Source: a virus
Virus record (IMG/VR): IMGVR_UViG_3300048839_001116
Coordinates: 1-40,604 of that record
Length of the DNA stretch: 40,604 nt
Direction: 5' to 3' (one strand)
The notes under the pieces were generated by a model that saw only the letters and a list, made by a program, of their open reading frames with translations, was not told the origin of the DNA and did not search any database. Position 1 is the stretch's first letter. Each line of letters starts with the position of its first letter. Both the position numbers and the translations under genes were made by a program. Positions 3,612-27,092 of the stretch are shown here, piece by piece.

Positions 3612-3633
3612 TGTGGAAAACAGGACTTCAGGT

Positions 3634-3693
3634 ATGCGCTCGGAAACTCAGATCGTGAGGCAACAGCGGCGTGGCCTGGAGTCCCTTTTTTAG
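3634..3693 (+). CDS. Possible 19-residue micro-ORF
   Basis: In the gap between two early genes there is an ATG-started reading frame of 19 codons (MRSETQIVRQQRRGLESLF) ending TAG at 3691-3693, abutting the Shine-Dalgarno of the next gene. AGGA lies about 9 bases upstream of its ATG. It could be a leader peptide coupling translation, or chance. Confidence 0.2.
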   Translation: MRSETQIVRQQRRGLESLF

Positions 3694-3704
3694 AGGGAAT
3701 GGTC

Positions 3705-8915: not shown

Positions 8916-10812
8916 GATCGACGGTATCTGCGCTCATTTGATGTGTCAGCCACGGCTGGCGCTCGACACAGAAACCACGGGGCTGGATGTGTGGGGAGAT
9001 GACCGGATGTTCTCGCTCATTCTCGCGGACCATGAGCAAGAGTACTATTTTGATTTCAACGCGCGCTCGTCCAATCCACTCGACAAAAGAAAAAGCCTAC
9101 GCAGCCTAACTTCTTTGTTTGAGCAGGCAGGCGTTCTCTGGTGTATGCATAACGCAAAATTTGACCTGGCCGTACTGCACCAGGAGGGGGTACGTGTGGC
9201 GGGAGAGATTCACTGCACCGAAGCCATTGGGCGCGTTGCCTATAACCAACATTTCGCTTACTCGCTTGACGCGCTCGTCAAACCCCTGGGGGCTCGAAAA
9301 GACACGCGCGTTGATGACTACATTACGGAGCATAAGCTTTATCGAATGGTGGACGGCGAGAAACAGAAAATGTTTGATCGCGTACCTGTTGAGATCATGG
9401 CTCGATACGGTGCGATGGATGCGCGTCTCACTCACATGCTCGCCGGCTATCAAATCGCGAACATCCGAAAACAGCAGGAGAGTGTCGAGAAGGGGAAACG
9501 CGGGCCGTGGGACATCATGCTTCAGGAACGCGCGATCACAAAAGTATTCTTTGAGATGGAGAAAACAGGCATCTCTGTTGATCTTGACTTTGTTCGCGAA
9601 GCCTACGCAAACGAGCGAAGCGTTATTACAGAGGGAATAAACGCATTTCAGTCTATGACAGGCGTCCCTTTTGTTGATAGCAGTAAGACACTTGCACCGA
9701 TCTTTGATCGAATGGGAGTTCCCTACCCTCTGACAGAGAAAGGGAATCCGTCTTTTGCCAAGGACGCGCTGGAGGACATGAATACGCCTCTAGGAGAGAA
9801 GATTCTTGAAATCAGAAAAGCTCAGAAGCGCGCCACCACGTACTTTGCCAACTTCTTGAAGTTTTCGCGTGATGGGATTATCCATCCCAACATGCGCCAG
9901 GGGGGTACTGCCCCTGGACGCATCTCCTATTCGAGTCCGAACTTCCAAAACCTTCCTAAGCGCACCGAGAAGGTCACGGACAAATTCAACACGCGCCGAT
10001 CAGTCGTTCCTTCTAAAGGACGGGCCTTAGTGATGCTCGACTACGATCAGATGGAGTATCGTCTGATGCTTGAGTACGCAAAACAGATGAACGTGATTGA
10101 GCAGGTTCTTGGCGGCTTAGACGTTCATGAGGCAATGGCGCAGCTGATGAAAGTTCACAGGGATTCAGCAAAAACGCTGAACTTCATGCTGCTCTATGGC
10201 GGAGGGGTCGCAACGCTTTGCGCAGAACTGTTTTCCCCAAACATCCCCATAGCTGTGCTCCAGGATTTGATGCGTGTGAAGAAGTGGGGACGCGCGGCCC
10301 TGCGTCCGGATCTTCTTTCCGCACTGACGCGTGAGCAGGTGGATCACAACATGGCTGAGCTAGAGAAAGCAGATGCCCTGAGGGAGGTTTACTTTGACCG
10401 CCTGCCCGGAGTGAAGGCGTTTAGTGACGACGTGATTGAGCGCGCCAAGCGCCGCGGATGGGTGAAGAACTGGGCAGGCCGTATTTGTCACTTCCCTATC
10501 AGAGCGCTTGCCTATAAGGCGCCTAATCATCTGATTCAGGGTGGGTGCGCTGACGTGGTGAAGAAAGCCATGCTGGAGGTAGCGCGTTACTTGGACGAGA
10601 AGAAATGCCAAACAAAGATGATCCTCCAGGTGCATGACGAGCTGGTGTTTGACGCACACCCCCAGGAACTCGAGATTTTTCCGGTGATACAGACCATCAT
10701 GCAGTCGGCCTACCCGCACAGGTACCTGCCTCTTACGGTGGGTGTAGAACACTCCTGGCGCTCCCTGGCTGACAAAGTGGAAGGATTCCCTACCCGTGGC
10801 GAAGCAGCCTGA
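8893..10812 (+). CDS. Family A DNA polymerase with 3'-5' exonuclease
   Basis: A 639-residue replicative polymerase of the Pol I/T7 type. Exonuclease motifs: ALDTETTG (23-30), MHNAKFDL (85-92), YGAMDA (172-177). Polymerase motifs: MLDYDQMEYRL (381-391, motif A), R423-K427-F431-Y435 in motif B, and VHDE (580-583, motif C). No 5'-3' nuclease domain is present. Phe at 431 is the position that discriminates against dideoxynucleotides in E. coli Pol I. The start is GTG at 8893, overlapping the previous gene, with no strong Shine-Dalgarno. It works with the primase-helicase at 819-3173. Confidence 0.96.
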   Translation: MKIVEKSEIDGICAHLMCQPRLALDTETTGLDVWGDDRMFSLILADHEQEYYFDFNARSSNPLDKRKSLRSLTSLFEQAGVLWCMHNAKFDLAVLHQEGVRVAGEIHCTEAIGRVAYNQHFAYSLDALVKPLGARKDTRVDDYITEHKLYRMVDGEKQKMFDRVPVEIMARYGAMDARLTHMLAGYQIANIRKQQESVEKGKRGPWDIMLQERAITKVFFEMEKTGISVDLDFVREAYANERSVITEGINAFQSMTGVPFVDSSKTLAPIFDRMGVPYPLTEKGNPSFAKDALEDMNTPLGEKILEIRKAQKRATTYFANFLKFSRDGIIHPNMRQGGTAPGRISYSSPNFQNLPKRTEKVTDKFNTRRSVVPSKGRALVMLDYDQMEYRLMLEYAKQMNVIEQVLGGLDVHEAMAQLMKVHRDSAKTLNFMLLYGGGVATLCAELFSPNIPIAVLQDLMRVKKWGRAALRPDLLSALTREQVDHNMAELEKADALREVYFDRLPGVKAFSDDVIERAKRRGWVKNWAGRICHFPIRALAYKAPNHLIQGGCADVVKKAMLEVARYLDEKKCQTKMILQVHDELVFDAHPQELEIFPVIQTIMQSAYPHRYLPLTVGVEHSWRSLADKVEGFPTRGEAA

Positions 10813-11122: not shown

Positions 11123-13027
11123 GTGTTCGCACAACAAATCAATTGCACGGACGAGGACGCGATCGAGTTCGACCCCGACCTTTTCGAGGTAGGTCCATCA
11201 GGTTGCCGCCTCAAACTCGTTCCGAATCCAGGGCGCATCTTCCAACAGACGTTTCAGAATGATACAGGGTTCATTTATGATTCGAATCTAGCGGAGATTG
11301 TTCCAGGGATTCTTCGCCAGAAAAATCAAACTCCAGTGAACTCCGTCTTTGGTGCGCGATTCACGGACACCATCAACGGAAACTGGACGCGCAATAATCT
11401 CTCAACAACTGCGACGGCGATCGGATCGCCTGCCATTGTAGACGGAAAACTCGCCACCAATGGGCCTGGAAATGGTGTTCATATCACGAACGCCGATATC
11501 GGGCTCGCAGGGATGCGCGGCATGATCGAATTTAAAATCACGCCGACTTATTCAGGTACGCCCGATGTGAATTACGGTGCTGTTCATCTCGGCAATCCGT
11601 CCTCGCCCACGGGAGCGGACTCCTTCACGCTCCTTCATAGTGCTTCTGGGGGGACGTGGAGAATTACGGCCCGAGATTCGTCTAACGTGAGCCAACATTC
11701 AGCACAGATAGTCGGGTCGGCCTGGTCGCCGGTTGCAGGGACCGAATACGTCGTGAGAATATATTGGGATCTCCGTGCTGTGATGGATGGCGGTTTTGGG
11801 TATCGGATTGAAATTAACAACGTCCTCCACGGCTCCCTCGCTTCGGCGTTCACACGCGGAAATTCTGCTACGAGGCTCTACGTTGGATCAAACCCAACCT
11901 ACACACCAGGGCGAGCATCGTTTCGCCACCTTCATATCTACGACGTTCCTCCGGCACTCGGCGGCGCACTTGATTACGTGGTTCCAGCTTTCAAGTACGC
12001 CAAAAACCGAGTACGTCCCCCAGCGTTTATCTATACCGGAAACGGCACCATTCAAAGTGTCGAAGTATTCACTGTCACCGTCGTGAATGGTGTGCGCTTC
12101 GGTGTAGCTGAAATGTACGTCGATGTGTCTGATCCGGAGAACCCGGTGTGGGCCGAAAGCGTTGAGGTCTATGAAGACGCAAGCCCGCCTGAAGATATTC
12201 AGGAGCACCTGCCTCTGCTGGAGGTAGAAGGCGCAGGAGTCGCTCCCTACTTTATCGACTTCCCTGACTCTAATACTCAAAGCTCCATCTCTCTGATCTA
12301 CGTCGAACTCACGGGCCAGATTTTCTCGACTGATAACCCTGCATTTGTGAGTGCGGAGATGACTGAAGCGGATGAAGTGAGCGCGTTTCTAGCGAGCATC
12401 AATGCTCCAGCAGGCACAGCCGTAAAATTCTCAGCACTCGTTTCTGGTGTAGAGAAGTCCTTTCAATCGGGAGCATGGAGCGCTTCAGCCGGATACGCTA
12501 CCGCGAACACTTACGCCGAGTTTCAAGCCGCCTTTGCGACCCTGCTTGCGTCGCGTGAAACACTTCAGATCAAGGTCTACCTTCACTGGGAAAGCGGGAT
12601 CAACTCACCTGCTGTGTCATTAATGTCGTATCTATATAGTGCGTATGGCGTGACTCCAGACGAGCCTGCTCGGTGCTTGGTTTACTGCTACCTGAACGAC
12701 GTAGCAGGAACTCTCAAGGATGTTCCTCAGCAAGCCACACTCACCGTGGAGCTTTTGGTGCCTTTTCAATACGCAGGCAGATTCATTGCTCGCTACAAGC
12801 GAGTGTTCAAATTCGATGCAGACGGTTACGTAGAAACATCACCCGCATTCCTCAGTGTAGCAGATCCGACCGTGAAAGAGGGGCTAGTCGAGTCAGCCAC
12901 CGCGGGGCTTTCTCCGTATAAGTTCACGCTGAACTATCGCGACAGCGATAACAAAAAGATCGTACAGGTACTCGAAAGCAAGCAAGTGCCGAACACCGAC
13001 AAAAAGAATTTAGCTGAGTACCTCTAG
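11123..13027 (+). CDS. Fibre-like structural protein with LamG-like domain
   Basis: A 634-residue, beta-rich protein. Residues about 85-275 look like a concanavalin A/LamG-type sandwich (GNWTRNNLST, GMIEFKITPTYSG, YRIEINNVLHG, then FRHLHIYDVPP). The rest contains repetitive beta stretches. This fits an adsorption or tail-tip protein that binds sugars on the host surface. The start is GTG at 11123 with weak upstream signal. A stop three codons upstream rules out a longer form. It is the only large structural-type gene on the plus strand, placed after the replication genes. Its stop interlocks with the opposing lysis-region gene. Confidence 0.65.
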   Translation: MFAQQINCTDEDAIEFDPDLFEVGPSGCRLKLVPNPGRIFQQTFQNDTGFIYDSNLAEIVPGILRQKNQTPVNSVFGARFTDTINGNWTRNNLSTTATAIGSPAIVDGKLATNGPGNGVHITNADIGLAGMRGMIEFKITPTYSGTPDVNYGAVHLGNPSSPTGADSFTLLHSASGGTWRITARDSSNVSQHSAQIVGSAWSPVAGTEYVVRIYWDLRAVMDGGFGYRIEINNVLHGSLASAFTRGNSATRLYVGSNPTYTPGRASFRHLHIYDVPPALGGALDYVVPAFKYAKNRVRPPAFIYTGNGTIQSVEVFTVTVVNGVRFGVAEMYVDVSDPENPVWAESVEVYEDASPPEDIQEHLPLLEVEGAGVAPYFIDFPDSNTQSSISLIYVELTGQIFSTDNPAFVSAEMTEADEVSAFLASINAPAGTAVKFSALVSGVEKSFQSGAWSASAGYATANTYAEFQAAFATLLASRETLQIKVYLHWESGINSPAVSLMSYLYSAYGVTPDEPARCLVYCYLNDVAGTLKDVPQQATLTVELLVPFQYAGRFIARYKRVFKFDADGYVETSPAFLSVADPTVKEGLVESATAGLSPYKFTLNYRDSDNKKIVQVLESKQVPNTDKKNLAEYL

Positions 13028-21649: not shown

Positions 21650-22806
21650 CAGATCCTCGGTATTTCAAGCACTGCGCCCACTATAAGGTCAGCCGACTGA
21701 AGCTTGTTGTGATCGTAGATCGCCTGCCATGAATCAGCTGAATTGTAATACTGAACCGCGAGCCTTTGAAGCGAGTCTCCCGACTTCACCAGGTGGCGTC
21801 TGAGCGGTGTCGAATTGATCAAAGAAGCAAACCGCACTCGAAGCGCCGCCAAAAGAGCCAGCAACCCCGCCATACCTGATAAATTATTCTGAACGTACTG
21901 CGCGTTTTTAACAGTAGCGGCCTGCTTGAAACTATCCCCGGTAACATCCTTACCTAAGTTCTCCACAGTCAGCTGGATCGAGCCCACCGCACGCGAAAGC
22001 CTAGAAAGCTCCGCACGCGCATTTCGAATGAGCCCAAGCGCACGATTCGCCCCCTTCACAGCACTGTCTACGTCATCCACGATGCCTGTCACAAAATCCG
22101 TCACCAGTCCCACAGCCGAACTGATCCCGTCCAGCTGGTCATTGAAGAACTCAACCAAAGTCCGCGGCATCTCTTCTGGAATAGACGAGTAGGTGCTGAG
22201 AAACGCAGCCGCTGCGTTCGTTAGCTCCTTGTTTGGCCTGATCAAGTCATCATCGGCGTTCTGAGTAAACCTGCACCCGCTTGGCGCATTAAATCCTACA
22301 ATTGAAAACTTGATGTCGTACTCAATATCCGTCAGACGAAAAAGCCTGAATTTTGCTTCCTCAATAAACCCGTACCTGCGCCATTCCCCAAGCGTGATCT
22401 TCACCAGGTTGCCGCGAAGTCGAATCGCGTCCACAAGCTCCTGGTACTCCTGGGCAGCTGCCTTTAAATTGGTGTCCTTGAAGCGCTTTGTTTTAAAGCG
22501 TCCCTTGATCGTCGTGTCGCTCTCACTTGGCCCAAGCACCTGCACTGTGGGCTCACTGCTGCCTGCGTAGTAATCCTTCACGATCCTTTGTGTTCCACCG
22601 AACTCAAAGGGAACGAGCGGCATGAACGATCCGACCAGTGTGACAGCATCCGCTGTCATCTCACGCCCCTGGACCACTTCTACAATCTGAAACCCACCCT
22701 CAAAATCCGGCTGAAACGCAACCGAAGGGCGTACCCCAGGCTGGCGAAAACCTCCCAGGCCCACCGCACTCAGTACCGATCCTGCTGCTTTTTCAAGTAG
22801 TGGCAT
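21649..22806 (-). CDS. Tail protein with C-terminal LysM domain
   Basis: A 385-residue protein. Its last about 50 residues form a LysM domain (RRHLVKSGDSLQRLAVQYYN, later GAVLEIPRI), a fold that in many contractile-tail systems attaches the hub rather than cell wall. The N-terminal half is similar to the hub-connecting proteins encoded between tape measure and gpD. The start codon shares one base with the tape measure stop. Confidence 0.82.
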   Translation of the reverse strand: MPLLEKAAGSVLSAVGLGGFRQPGVRPSVAFQPDFEGGFQIVEVVQGREMTADAVTLVGSFMPLVPFEFGGTQRIVKDYYAGSSEPTVQVLGPSESDTTIKGRFKTKRFKDTNLKAAAQEYQELVDAIRLRGNLVKITLGEWRRYGFIEEAKFRLFRLTDIEYDIKFSIVGFNAPSGCRFTQNADDDLIRPNKELTNAAAAFLSTYSSIPEEMPRTLVEFFNDQLDGISSAVGLVTDFVTGIVDDVDSAVKGANRALGLIRNARAELSRLSRAVGSIQLTVENLGKDVTGDSFKQAATVKNAQYVQNNLSGMAGLLALLAALRVRFASLINSTPLRRHLVKSGDSLQRLAVQYYNSADSWQAIYDHNKLQSADLIVGAVLEIPRI

Positions 22807-24665
22807 TAGCGAGCAAACGCCCCCGTGAAGGACCGGCCCGCGGCCTGTCCTGGATTCTGAGCCGCTTTCAAGAGCTGCTCTTTCAAAGTAAACGCGATTC
22901 GATCAGGCTCCATCTGCTGCTTGAAGTCGTTCCTAATCTCTACTTTCCCGATGTGTGTTGTCTGAGTGACCACCGCACCCGTACCATCCGAAATGGCCTG
23001 GAGTCCGCGCTCGATCATGTCGTCAATGCCTCCCGTGAACGCGTCTCCAATGGCCGAAAAGCTAAACCCACCACCCGTAACAAATGACTTCACTTGCTCA
23101 ACGAACTCGAAAACAGCAAACAAAAGCCCATTAAACGTAGACTGCGCCAGGAGAAGTGTAGTCCCCAGTGCGTCGATTATGAAAACGAGTGCTTCAAAGT
23201 ATCGCGAAACCTGAAACAGAGGAGACAAAAAGCGCGCGATCGTGTCGAAGATCGCAACAAAGGGCTTTAGAAAAATTCCCACCACGGCACTGAGCTTCGC
23301 CATCGCTGTTGCAAACTTAGGCGTCAGATCCAGCATGTCTTTCGCATCTTCCACATCCGCGATCGCTCGCGCTCGAGATATGAGCTGAAGCACGCCCAGG
23401 ATGGCCGCAAAAGGAAGCAAGATCCGTGACCCAATCACAACAATGCCGTTTGCGATCTTAAAGAAAGCTCCAAAGATCCCCGTTGCTCCTGTAATAAAAA
23501 TCATGAATCGGCCAAGCGCCAATGATATCGCCGTGATACCTCCAAGCACTGCCGCAAGCGTTCCGCCTAAGCCCATGAGCGCGATACGTGTAGCCGAGGC
23601 CGTGAGTCCAAGCATCGAAATCACTTGTGCAAGGCCCGTGAGAACCGCAATCACGGTCAGGATCGTTCCCGCAAGGTTGATGTCCGTCTTGATTCTCCTT
23701 AATTGAAGCAGATTCGTGAGCAACGACTCAGGATCAGAGATAAGTGGACCAACGAACGCAGAAACCGCCGCGATCAATTCCTTTCCGCCCGTCTGAAGCG
23801 TGTTAGTCAGCATGTTCATCACTTTCAGCAAGGGAACCAGAACCACGTCACCGAGAGGTTTTAGTATCGAGAAAGGCCCCTTGATCGCTTCAGTTAATCG
23901 CTGCATCTCCCCACTCAAACTCCGTGCATTGCCTTCAAGCACATCCATGTCCGAACTGAATTGCTTGAGCGCTTCTGACACCACTTTCAAACGCTCCGGA
24001 GCAGGCAGCAGGTTGAAAGCTTGCGGACCTCCCTGCTTATTGAAGGGAGAAAACGCCGTTGTTTCATTCATGAGGCGCTGAAAAAGAGTATCGGCCACGC
24101 TGGCTCGTCCCTGAATCAAATCGAGAAGCTGCCCGCGCGCAAGCCCAGGATCAACACCCAGTGTGGGTGCTGACTTGAGAAAGTTTCGCGATATATCAAT
24201 GGCAGTAGAAAAGTTCGGACCCGCAAGACCCTTCGGCACCAGCGTCGCAGCAAGTAGCTTCGACATTTCCAACATATCCGTACTCGGAAGCGAGAACTCC
24301 TGCGCAAGCAGGTTGATCCGTTCCATGATGTTCGCCGAAACATTCAAACGATCCTGGAACGTCGTCACATCCCCAGTGAGATTGCCTAAGTTCGACGAAA
24401 TGATGTTCGCAAACTGCCTCTGCGACATCCCAAACTTATCCGACGCTTGAATCGCCGTAGAAAGTATCCCGAGCAAGCTTCCTGCGCCTACACCTAACTG
24501 TGCCGCGAGCCCCATCCCCAGGCGCTGAAAAGAAAGAAGCGTGTTGTCCGCAGCCCCCTGGAGGCGATCCACAGCCCCCTGGAGCGCGTTCGTGTTGACG
24601 ATGGCCGCACCCGTCTCGAACCGGAACTCAGTGAGCACTTTAAACGCCTGAGTTCCTATCGCCAC
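22806..24665 (-). CDS. Tail tape measure protein
   Basis: A 619-residue protein starting at GTG with GGGAGG upstream. It is long, helical and repetitive, with a broad hydrophobic stretch around residues 330-440 (AGTILTVIAVLTGLAQ, ILLPFAAILGVLQLI) typical of tape measures that later insert into the host membrane. It directly follows the frameshifted tail chaperone gene. At the usual 0.15 nm per residue its length predicts a tail of roughly 90 nm (inference). Confidence 0.92.
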   Translation of the reverse strand: MAIGTQAFKVLTEFRFETGAAIVNTNALQGAVDRLQGAADNTLLSFQRLGMGLAAQLGVGAGSLLGILSTAIQASDKFGMSQRQFANIISSNLGNLTGDVTTFQDRLNVSANIMERINLLAQEFSLPSTDMLEMSKLLAATLVPKGLAGPNFSTAIDISRNFLKSAPTLGVDPGLARGQLLDLIQGRASVADTLFQRLMNETTAFSPFNKQGGPQAFNLLPAPERLKVVSEALKQFSSDMDVLEGNARSLSGEMQRLTEAIKGPFSILKPLGDVVLVPLLKVMNMLTNTLQTGGKELIAAVSAFVGPLISDPESLLTNLLQLRRIKTDINLAGTILTVIAVLTGLAQVISMLGLTASATRIALMGLGGTLAAVLGGITAISLALGRFMIFITGATGIFGAFFKIANGIVVIGSRILLPFAAILGVLQLISRARAIADVEDAKDMLDLTPKFATAMAKLSAVVGIFLKPFVAIFDTIARFLSPLFQVSRYFEALVFIIDALGTTLLLAQSTFNGLLFAVFEFVEQVKSFVTGGGFSFSAIGDAFTGGIDDMIERGLQAISDGTGAVVTQTTHIGKVEIRNDFKQQMEPDRIAFTLKEQLLKAAQNPGQAAGRSFTGAFAR

Positions 24666-24669
24666 GTTG

Positions 24670-25142
24670 CTAGACCTCCCTGCCTGATTCTGATTTTAAC
24701 AGAATTTCAAGCTGTTCACAAAACTCGATAAACTGCCAAGGAGTCATCTCCATGACATCGGCAGGTCGAAGGCTCGTGTACCGACAGATCCAGGCTATTT
24801 GACGCCAGAAACGACGTGCTCGACCTGTAACTTTCCCATGTCACCGTCGTCGCCCATCATCTGCTGCACAGCCTGGAGCACCTGCTTATACTCCTTGATA
24901 GTGAAAAGATCATCCAGCCGCTCCAGATCAGACGCTTTCACAGGCTTATCATCCACTGCGTAAATGAGGATCTTGACTAACTCCTTCTGCATGAACACAG
25001 CCAGCAGCATGGGGTTGTCACCCGCCCGAGGTGCCGCAGCCGTGGCCGCAAGCTCCTGGTGCTTAATCTTCATCTCACGAAGCAGGACCGTCTTTCCGGT
25101 CCCCAACGTCACACGTGTACCCTGCATTTCATTCTCGGACAT
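24670..25142 (-). CDS. Tail assembly chaperone, -1 frameshift fusion
   Basis: Reading 104 codons from 25142, shifting back one base at GGGAAAG (24831-24837) and continuing to the stop at 24670-24672 gives a 157-residue fusion. The added 53 residues (VTGRARRFWRQIAW, then PADVMEMTPWQFIEFCEQLE) look like real protein. This is the gpGT-type arrangement of lambda, P2 and others, in which a small fraction of chaperone carries a tail-tube-binding extension that guides assembly around the tape measure. It ends within the Shine-Dalgarno zone of the tape measure gene. Confidence 0.85.
24795..25142 (-). CDS. Tail assembly chaperone, unshifted product
   Basis: A 115-residue protein between tail tube and tape measure genes, the standard location. 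It has an N-terminal strand region (GTRVTLGTGKTVLLREMK) and a helical remainder (ERLDDLFTIKEYKQVLQAVQ) ending GDMGKLQVEHVVSGVK. Most ribosomes should make this form; the frameshifted version is listed separately. Confidence 0.85.
   Translation of the reverse strand: MSENEMQGTRVTLGTGKTVLLREMKIKHQELAATAAAPRAGDNPMLLAVFMQKELVKILIYAVDDKPVKASDLERLDDLFTIKEYKQVLQAVQQMMGDDGDMGKLQVEHVVSGVK
24831..24837 (-). other. Programmed -1 frameshift slippery site
   Basis: On the minus strand the zero-frame reading is ATG-GGA-AAG, so the heptamer is G-GGA-AAG, an exact X-XXY-YYZ site and the same heptamer used in the lambda G/T gene. It sits 11 codons before the zero-frame stop. The -1 frame stays open for 53 codons beyond. 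Confidence 0.85.
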
Positions 25143-25207: not shown

Positions 25208-25630
25208 TTAGAGCGGAAGTCGGCCAGATGCCTGGAAGTCAAGCTTCTTGGTCATCTTGGCATTCAATCCACCCTGCTGCTTCGACATCTTCCATTGAAC
25301 GTCGAAATACACATAGCTCTTCACGCTTCCATCAGCATATTGCTCCGAGCTGATGAAGGTGTAGTCACTCACACCGATACCGGCCAAGTTCGAAGTGACC
25401 AGCGCGTCGATGAACTCATCAATGGCCGCGTCCTTCACCTCAGCGTCCACACTGCCGCTCCAACCCTCAATCGCCTGATCCCCTTCAGGAAGAGGCTGAC
25501 CGACGTACATGGACCGCATGAAAGTGGAATCCTGATTCACCTGGACGTTGGTCAGGTTCACAATGTCCTGAAGCGCTCCGTCTTGGAAAATCTTAAACTG
25601 CCCGAGATGACCGCGAATACTTGCACTCAT
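25208..25630 (-). CDS. Major tail tube protein
   Basis: A 140-residue, beta-rich protein directly after the sheath gene in the transcript. The start (SIRGHLGQFKIFQDGALQDI, then VQVNQDSTFMRSMYVGQPLP) matches tube proteins of Mu-like contractile phages. It polymerises into the inner tube inside the sheath. Confidence 0.87.
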   Translation of the reverse strand: MSASIRGHLGQFKIFQDGALQDIVNLTNVQVNQDSTFMRSMYVGQPLPEGDQAIEGWSGSVDAEVKDAAIDEFIDALVTSNLAGIGVSDYTFISSEQYADGSVKSYVYFDVQWKMSKQQGGLNAKMTKKLDFQASGRLPL

Positions 25631-25649: not shown

Positions 25650-27092
25650 TTAAGCCGCTTCAGTGACTACGACACTCTCGCCGATCTCAGCCTGGAGAAC
25701 GATGAACCGCATCGAAGAATGAATGCGCTGACGCCACAAAATTTTGAAGAACCCAAGGGATATGGACAGATCCGTATTCAAGCTCTCCGTGTCCACGAGC
25801 TTTGCAAGCCCCGTTGATACTTCAGAGTCCTTTGGAAGAATCCCGTCCCGCTCCAAGCTGTCGATGAACCCAAGGATCGCTCCCTTTACCAGTGACCGAT
25901 TGGCTGAGGTGTTCGGAGCGTTCTGGTAGTTCTTCAAGAACTGTCCGACTGAGTTCGTGAGGAAGTCAGCCATTCTGCGCCTGAGGATCATCACCTTCGA
26001 TGAATCAAGGATCTGTGTCACCACACCTGATTTCACCTTGAAGCCTACGTCCGCATCCTGCTCGAAAGCAGCGATCCCTGCGCTCTTCAGGTTGATGTAA
26101 TGCGTCCGGTTGAGTGCAAGCTTGAGTCCCGTGATTCCGCCCGTAAACTGAGCATTCTTCACGTAAGCCGGATCAATGTGTGGTGCCGTCTGAGTCAAGA
26201 TGCTCAGCATCCAGGGAGCCGGGCTCGTGTACACAAGCTGGCCGTCGATACTGGTCTGAACCCAGGGAAACGCGTAGATGATTCGTCCATCCACGTCACG
26301 CTTGTCGGACACATCCGTGATCGCGTCAGAAACGCTATCACTTTCAGCTCCGGCCATAATGACCATCTTGTCCTGAGTCGCGGCTGCGTGCGCCTTCAGA
26401 TACCCGTTTCGAGTATCGTTGTACGCATCCAAGCAAATGAAGTTTCCGGCATTCGCCACTTCGCAAAGCGCGATCGCATCCTCATAATCCCCATCTACGA
26501 TGGTTCCATCCGACCCGGAGGTAAGATTGGTGAATGCGACGTTGTCAGGCTCTGCTGCCGAACTGTTAACCACCGCCGTGATCAACTGAGAACTTGCGAA
26601 AGTCTCAGCAGTAATCGAAGCAATCGCGACGTTGTCGTACACCTCGTCGTTCAACACCGCGTCCGCGTTGTTGTCATGAATCGTGTACTTCTTCCCAGAA
26701 TCCGTTCCTGCCTCGATCTTCACTTGGATGTTGTTTCCGTAAACACCCTTCCCCTGCTTTGCAGAGAAGGTGATTCGAGGAGTCGCGGAACTTTCGAAAG
26801 CTCCCGATGCAACCACTGCGTCCGCAGCGATCACTCGAATGAGCTTCAGCATTCCGAAGCGTTTATTCTTGAGCGCGGTATTGATCCCGTAGCTCGCCTT
26901 TCCAAAAATCTCATGGATCTCACCAATAGAACCGACCGAAGTCAGCGCCATGGGGCCGCGTTGAGCAGCTCCGATGATGATGCCTACATTAGCAGCCACC
27001 CCGGCCACGTTGGGTGCAGGAGCCGTCTCGTTGATAACGATTCCGTCTACGTCGTCAAAGGTCGTCGGGTCACTTGATCTAAAAATGCTCAT
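25650..27092 (-). CDS. Tail sheath protein
   Basis: A 480-residue protein with sheath-family features: N-terminal ETAPAPNVAGVAANVGIIIG, the ADAVVASGAFE region, and a C-terminal domain including FLTNSVGQFLKNYQN and the final strand FIVLQAEI. Contraction of this protein drives the tube through the host envelope; its presence identifies the phage as a myovirus. Confidence 0.93.
   Translation of the reverse strand: MSIFRSSDPTTFDDVDGIVINETAPAPNVAGVAANVGIIIGAAQRGPMALTSVGSIGEIHEIFGKASYGINTALKNKRFGMLKLIRVIAADAVVASGAFESSATPRITFSAKQGKGVYGNNIQVKIEAGTDSGKKYTIHDNNADAVLNDEVYDNVAIASITAETFASSQLITAVVNSSAAEPDNVAFTNLTSGSDGTIVDGDYEDAIALCEVANAGNFICLDAYNDTRNGYLKAHAAATQDKMVIMAGAESDSVSDAITDVSDKRDVDGRIIYAFPWVQTSIDGQLVYTSPAPWMLSILTQTAPHIDPAYVKNAQFTGGITGLKLALNRTHYINLKSAGIAAFEQDADVGFKVKSGVVTQILDSSKVMILRRRMADFLTNSVGQFLKNYQNAPNTSANRSLVKGAILGFIDSLERDGILPKDSEVSTGLAKLVDTESLNTDLSISLGFFKILWRQRIHSSMRFIVLQAEIGESVVVTEAA

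Follow-up and report, generated by a model that had tools for sequence, protein, structure and literature searches.

A probable −1 ribosomal frameshift site in the tail assembly chaperone gene of an uncultured contractile-tailed phage and its relatives

The stretch of DNA analysed here (the window) is an entire IMG/VR virus record of 40,604 bases and belongs to an uncultured phage with a contractile tail. Among its minus-strand genes are a primase gene and matches to terminase, portal, major head, neck and sheath families, while DNA polymerase and helicase genes are carried on the plus strand. The terminase matches 255 phage records, each at less than 60% identity. Also on the plus strand, 3′ of the DNA polymerase gene, a 634-aa ORF (11123–13027) gave no PHROG match at E 0.001. 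The tail genes lie on the minus strand in the order sheath, tube, chaperone and tape measure. The sheath gene (25650–27092) matches phrog_279 (E 3e-15), and the tape measure protein gene (22806–24665, GTG start) matches phrog_1272 (E 4.9e-5). The tube gene (25208–25630), which matches phrog_12993, a family of unknown function, was named by its position between sheath and chaperone. The protein that follows the tape measure gene matches baseplate and endolysin families. Neither the tube nor the chaperone had a match in the phage collection, and the tube alignment gave none in prokaryote genome contigs.

The putative G-like tail assembly chaperone gene (minus strand, 24795–25142) runs from an ATG to a TAG and encodes 115 aa in the 0 frame. 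Near its end the minus strand reads GAC ATG GGA AAG TTA CAG, and thus carries the candidate slippery heptamer GGGAAAG (24831–24837) in the register G_GGA_AAG, 11 sense codons upstream of the stop. From the heptamer on, the −1 frame encodes GKVTGRARRFWRQIAWICRYTSLRPADVMEMTPWQFIEFCEQLEILLKSESGREV and ends at a TAG (24672–24670); this extension, a T-like domain (minus strand, 24670–24837), consists of GK followed by 53 residues. The 0 and −1 frames are both open over a 46-nt overlap (minus strand, 24795–24840), and the GTG of the tape measure gene (24665) begins four bases past the extension TAG. The position, strand and register of the heptamer, its distance from the stop and the 53 residues ending just ahead of the tape measure start, all claimed in a preliminary description of this DNA, were borne out by the sequence and its translation. 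The same description called the heptamer identical to that of lambda, and indeed gene G of lambda (J02459) carries GGGAAAG in the matching register, at 10109. Between 24666 and 24794 there is otherwise no noteworthy ORF, just a mechanical one of 42 aa in the third frame (24716–24844, GTG start), which overlaps this region. An annotation blind to frameshifting would overlook the 53-residue C-terminal domain.

Across the window GGGAAAG was not enriched (7 matches versus a mean of 6.79 in shuffles). When the codons of the window's own chaperone gene were permuted, an exact in-frame GGGAAAG in the 46-nt overlap had P = 0.0079 and any canonical heptamer there P = 0.014. Taken alone, the window thus gives modest, suggestive support for a frameshift site (P about 0.008), and it is the relatives that are decisive.

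Relatives were collected with the tube protein as bait, which is unbiased towards the heptamer or the extension and gave 47 loci in viral contigs. Two of these (L059 and L065) were left out because their contigs end ahead of the chaperone gene; the remaining 45, two loci found via the extension and the window itself made up 48 loci, reduced to 43 non-redundant ones by removal of the near-duplicates L036, L037, L057, L068 and L069. The sheath as bait gave three loci, which were not taken further, and searches with just the chaperone turned up no relatives, either among viral contigs or in the phage collection. All 48 loci have a gene of 103–132 aa and, behind it in its −1 frame, an extension belonging to one and the same family, characterised by the motif W..I.W..RYTS; that of L072 is a weak match (10.6 bits).

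We then considered whether the −1 frame is maintained as protein. Over 25 codons from RYTS on, past the 0-frame stop, pairwise differences at the three −1 codon positions numbered 11203/7474/15351, a pattern which argues that the −1 frame is translated as protein. In the overlap, variation per site by codon position was 0.37/0.41/0.50, versus 0.63/0.58/0.72 in the 60 nt upstream (computed on 11 gap-free loci). The codon-position differences past the stop show that selection acts on the −1 frame at the protein level. These results also bear on a pseudogene or sequencing error, in which an indel in the contig would have split one original frame. A lone −1 step in one contig would look identical to what is seen here; the arrangement is however common to all 48 loci, which come from separate contigs, selection at the codon level is seen on either side of the shift site, and the chance of such an artefact is negligible.

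In each of the 48 loci the equivalent position holds a slippery sequence or one resembling it. GGGAAAG was found in 18, GGGAAAC in 12, CCCAAAG and GGGGGAG in five each and GTCAAAG in two, with GGGGGAA, CCCCCAG (L044), TTTTTTG, AAAAAAG, GGAAAAG and ACAAAAG in one locus each. A canonical in-frame X_XXY_YYZ heptamer was present in the overlap of 32 of the 43 non-redundant loci, versus 3.56 expected from codon permutation; the parts of these genes that lie upstream of the overlap had 18 in 4004 codons. Glycine is encoded at the site in 32 loci, by GGA in 26 and by GGG in six, always preceded by G, while among 310 glycine codons elsewhere in the chaperone genes 93 were GGA, 46 GGG and 52 preceded by G. 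GGGAAAC accounted for 12 of the 43 non-redundant loci, including L029, the row most identical to the window. Thus the exact heptamer varies among relatives, while the site and the frame stay. Conservation in close relatives had been proposed as a check: the downstream frame was kept in 48 of 48 loci, but the literal GGGAAAG was absent from the site in 30 of 48, among them L029 and the window's two nearest rows on the tree, L047 and L034.

The other 11 non-redundant loci are without a canonical heptamer, and their sites were placed by eye. In seven of them the site includes GGGGGA or CCCCCA, against 0.14 expected, in a test framed after these sequences had been seen. Such runs would suit a frame change made by RNA polymerase slipping on a short run in place of the ribosome. 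The runs in the window are however just three bases long, and the codon register, which is kept at the site, can be read by the ribosome alone. We therefore regard polymerase slippage as extremely unlikely. As an observation in its own right, the seven loci (L034, L047, L048, L052, L072, L094 and L044), with GGGGGAG, GGGGGAA or CCCCCAG at the site, all keep the −1 extension.

The extension might alternatively be a separate small gene, with its own start or read by re-initiation past the chaperone stop, in which case the heptamer would be incidental. In the window, no ATG, GTG or TTG was found in the extension ahead of the conserved motif, the first occurring at residue 29, past the motif. Counting the window, 35 of the 43 loci lack any of these three start codons ahead of the motif, and the seven GGGGGAR or CCCCCAG loci all belong to this set; the remaining eight do have one, among them three (L041, L061 and L063) of the four loci with A_AAG only. 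G-rich sites could also act as ribosome-binding sites, as is suspected for G_GGG constructs in PMC4066793. Retention of an in-frame slippery site far above chance argues against a separate gene, and overall we find this explanation very unlikely, less so than polymerase slippage.

We next looked for a stimulatory RNA structure. No conserved downstream structure was found over the 43 loci, the mean z being −0.74 for the 60 nt and −1.11 for the 90 nt past the site, with −0.35 for the upstream control. The window has a possible 8-bp stem (minus strand, 24762–24827; arms 24820–24827 and 24762–24769) that begins 3 nt past the heptamer; it was not significant (z −1.52, 18 of 200 shuffles folding equally well) and is not conserved. 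A strong stem in L041 and L063, formed by the codons of LWRQIAWICRYT, was set aside as absent from most of the family. Since no conserved structure was found, the heptamer and its local context may suffice, or stimulators may differ among lineages.

Both products were modelled from family alignments, with pLDDT 87.1 for the chaperone and 93.5 for the extension, predicted as three helices. Against solved structures, the best match of the chaperone model by Foldseek was the HK97 tail assembly chaperone 2ob9 (E 0.11, 15% identity). By Z the three best were YqbN 3klu (7.0; 10% identity, E 1.4), 3fgx (6.2) and 2ob9 (5.7). Against viral models, a tail assembly chaperone was named in 10 of the best 50 of 445 matches, two of the 445 reaching E 0.001 or better. 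The predicted chaperone fold thus appears similar to those of the HK97 chaperone and YqbN, but scores as modest as these may reflect no more than a common arrangement, and they offer support for kinship, not proof.

The window chaperone had no family match of its own and did not match Pfam PF10109 (Phage_TAC_7), which holds P2 E and Mu 41. Two of the 43 chaperones matched PF10109 weakly (best E 0.048, unrelated families scoring better), and the tail assembly chaperone families phrog_31986 and phrog_20192 matched two and one of the 43, respectively. Hits of a PDB profile search to the ABC transporter protein uup (E 0.0028) and a designed cage (1.4) were taken as chance. For the extension, phrog_634 (gp51, baseplate hub assembly catalyst) matched two of 43 sequences (best E 2e-4), and Gp51 of a Prochlorococcus phage was the second Foldseek match of its model (TM 0.69, E 1.2); the single sequence of T4 gp51 gave nothing detectable against the extension. 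DUF6760 matched three of 43 extensions (best E 0.0076; below its own cut-off in L052, where this was looked at), and our literature search found no paper on it. VIA-align gave no match for the extension among the two chains compared.

Gene order and register allow a closer comparison with known systems. As in the window, lambda has GGGAAAG in the same register of a gene that adjoins the tape measure gene, gpG and gpGT being the two products. The distance from heptamer to stop differs (five codons in lambda, 11 in the window), as does the length of the T part from the heptamer (146 versus 55 residues). Lambda has no contractile sheath. Using hhalign against the single lambda G and T sequences, a weak test, we found no similarity. 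Phage P2, with gpE and gpE+E′, resembles the window in its contractile tail, its −1 shift and the location of the site before the tape measure gene T, and its extension is likewise short (59 residues from the heptamer, 55 in the window). The P2 heptamer is TTTTTTG, six codons before the stop, compared with GGGAAAG and 11 codons in the window; the relative L060 also has TTTTTTG. E′ and the extension had no significant sequence similarity, 12 of 60 shuffles of E′ scoring equally. Phage Mu shares the contractile tail and the order tube, chaperone (gp41), tape measure, but its record gives a verified −2 shift, whereas the shift in the window would be −1; the Mu gene also has a G-run, close to the end of gp41. 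No sequence similarity of the chaperone to Mu 41 or P2 E was detectable. The founding paper on such chaperones is reportedly that of Xu et al. 2004.

Taken together, gene order, codon register, the lack of a start for the extension and conservation in relatives support the −1 frameshifted tail chaperone suggested earlier for this locus. Programmed −1 ribosomal frameshifting very probably yields a tail assembly chaperone pair of the G/GT type, predicted from the sequence as a 115-aa protein and a 157-aa fusion. Most ribosomes would reach the 0-frame stop and release the 115-aa chaperone. A minority would slip back by one base on G_GGA_AAG, the P-site tRNA moving from GGA to GGG and the A-site tRNA from AAG to AAA, and would continue in the −1 frame to give the 157-aa fusion (104 + 53 residues). 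Sequence, register, the retention of site and frame and the selection on the −1 frame are established directly; that the shift occurs, and how often, is inferred from them. According to PMC5009743, lambda makes gpG and gpGT at 30:1; the G portion, present in both, binds the tape measure protein, and the tail tube protein is bound by the T part. By analogy, the division of labour between the two forms here would be that of lambda: the 115-aa protein would attach to the tape measure protein, and tail tube subunits would be brought in by the helical domain fused to the C-terminus of the longer form, the tube growing around the tape measure. The chaperone is very probably an addition to the G/GT class, and the device is ordinary and well known in phages; what would join the users of this classic recoding device is a phage group whose tube and chaperone are unmatched in the phage collection.

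Several of the heptamers found in this family have been studied in E. coli. In PMC4066793, C_CCA_AAG, G_GGA_AAG and A_AAA_AAG were the most efficient heptamers in the presence of stimulators, and GGGAAAC had low efficiency yet occurs in insertion sequences; GGGAAAC is also reported to be where an archaeal virus shifts frame. With the 43 non-redundant loci, as many natural variants of one shift site are now available.

To follow the turnover of the site we used a tree whose columns exclude it, except for L066, where the site aligns further upstream. To explain the six GGGGGAR loci, four or more changes are required on this tree, in which gain and loss are indistinguishable and many forks are weak. 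The four loci with A_AAG only (L041, L043, L061 and L063) need at least three, inside one group of eight rows. The window itself falls in a group (support 82/86) with L034 and L047, each of which has GGGGGAG. Tentatively, and at somewhat less than even chance, we propose that the slippery site turns over freely, with four or more changes into or out of G_GGG_GAR on the tree, and that, if these sites work, slippage led by the P site is a regular natural solution for this gene. On G_GGG_GAR the P-site tRNA can re-pair perfectly and the A-site tRNA cannot, so these are not X_XXZ_ZZN heptamers. In the passages of PMC4066793 that deal with tetramers, C_CCC and above all A_AAG shifted with a stimulator, and the signal from G_GGG in E. 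coli was ascribed to initiation and not to shifting. The program PRFect has backward motif classes called ‘five’, ‘twofour’ and ‘twoonefour’ (PMC10885494); judged by their names, these would fit GGGGGAG, GGAAAAG and AACAAAAG. In view of these classes and of the Mu G-run, sites of the GGGGGAR type may not be new. A literature search for GGGGGAG together with frameshift and slippery found no paper, and in one study from a broader search the string forms part of a ribosome-binding site. The recurrence of GGGGGAR is the sole mildly surprising part of this system, and if these sites work, the family offers a ready-made series in which to test re-pairing at the P site only.

Two further features were observed in the relatives. 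L047 has a tRNA-like gene (3615–3698) between tube and chaperone, to which ARAGORN gives the anticodon atat and no name. Finally, the tube protein is strikingly conserved, with a mean column identity of 75% (21 sequences), beside a fast-changing chaperone (36%).
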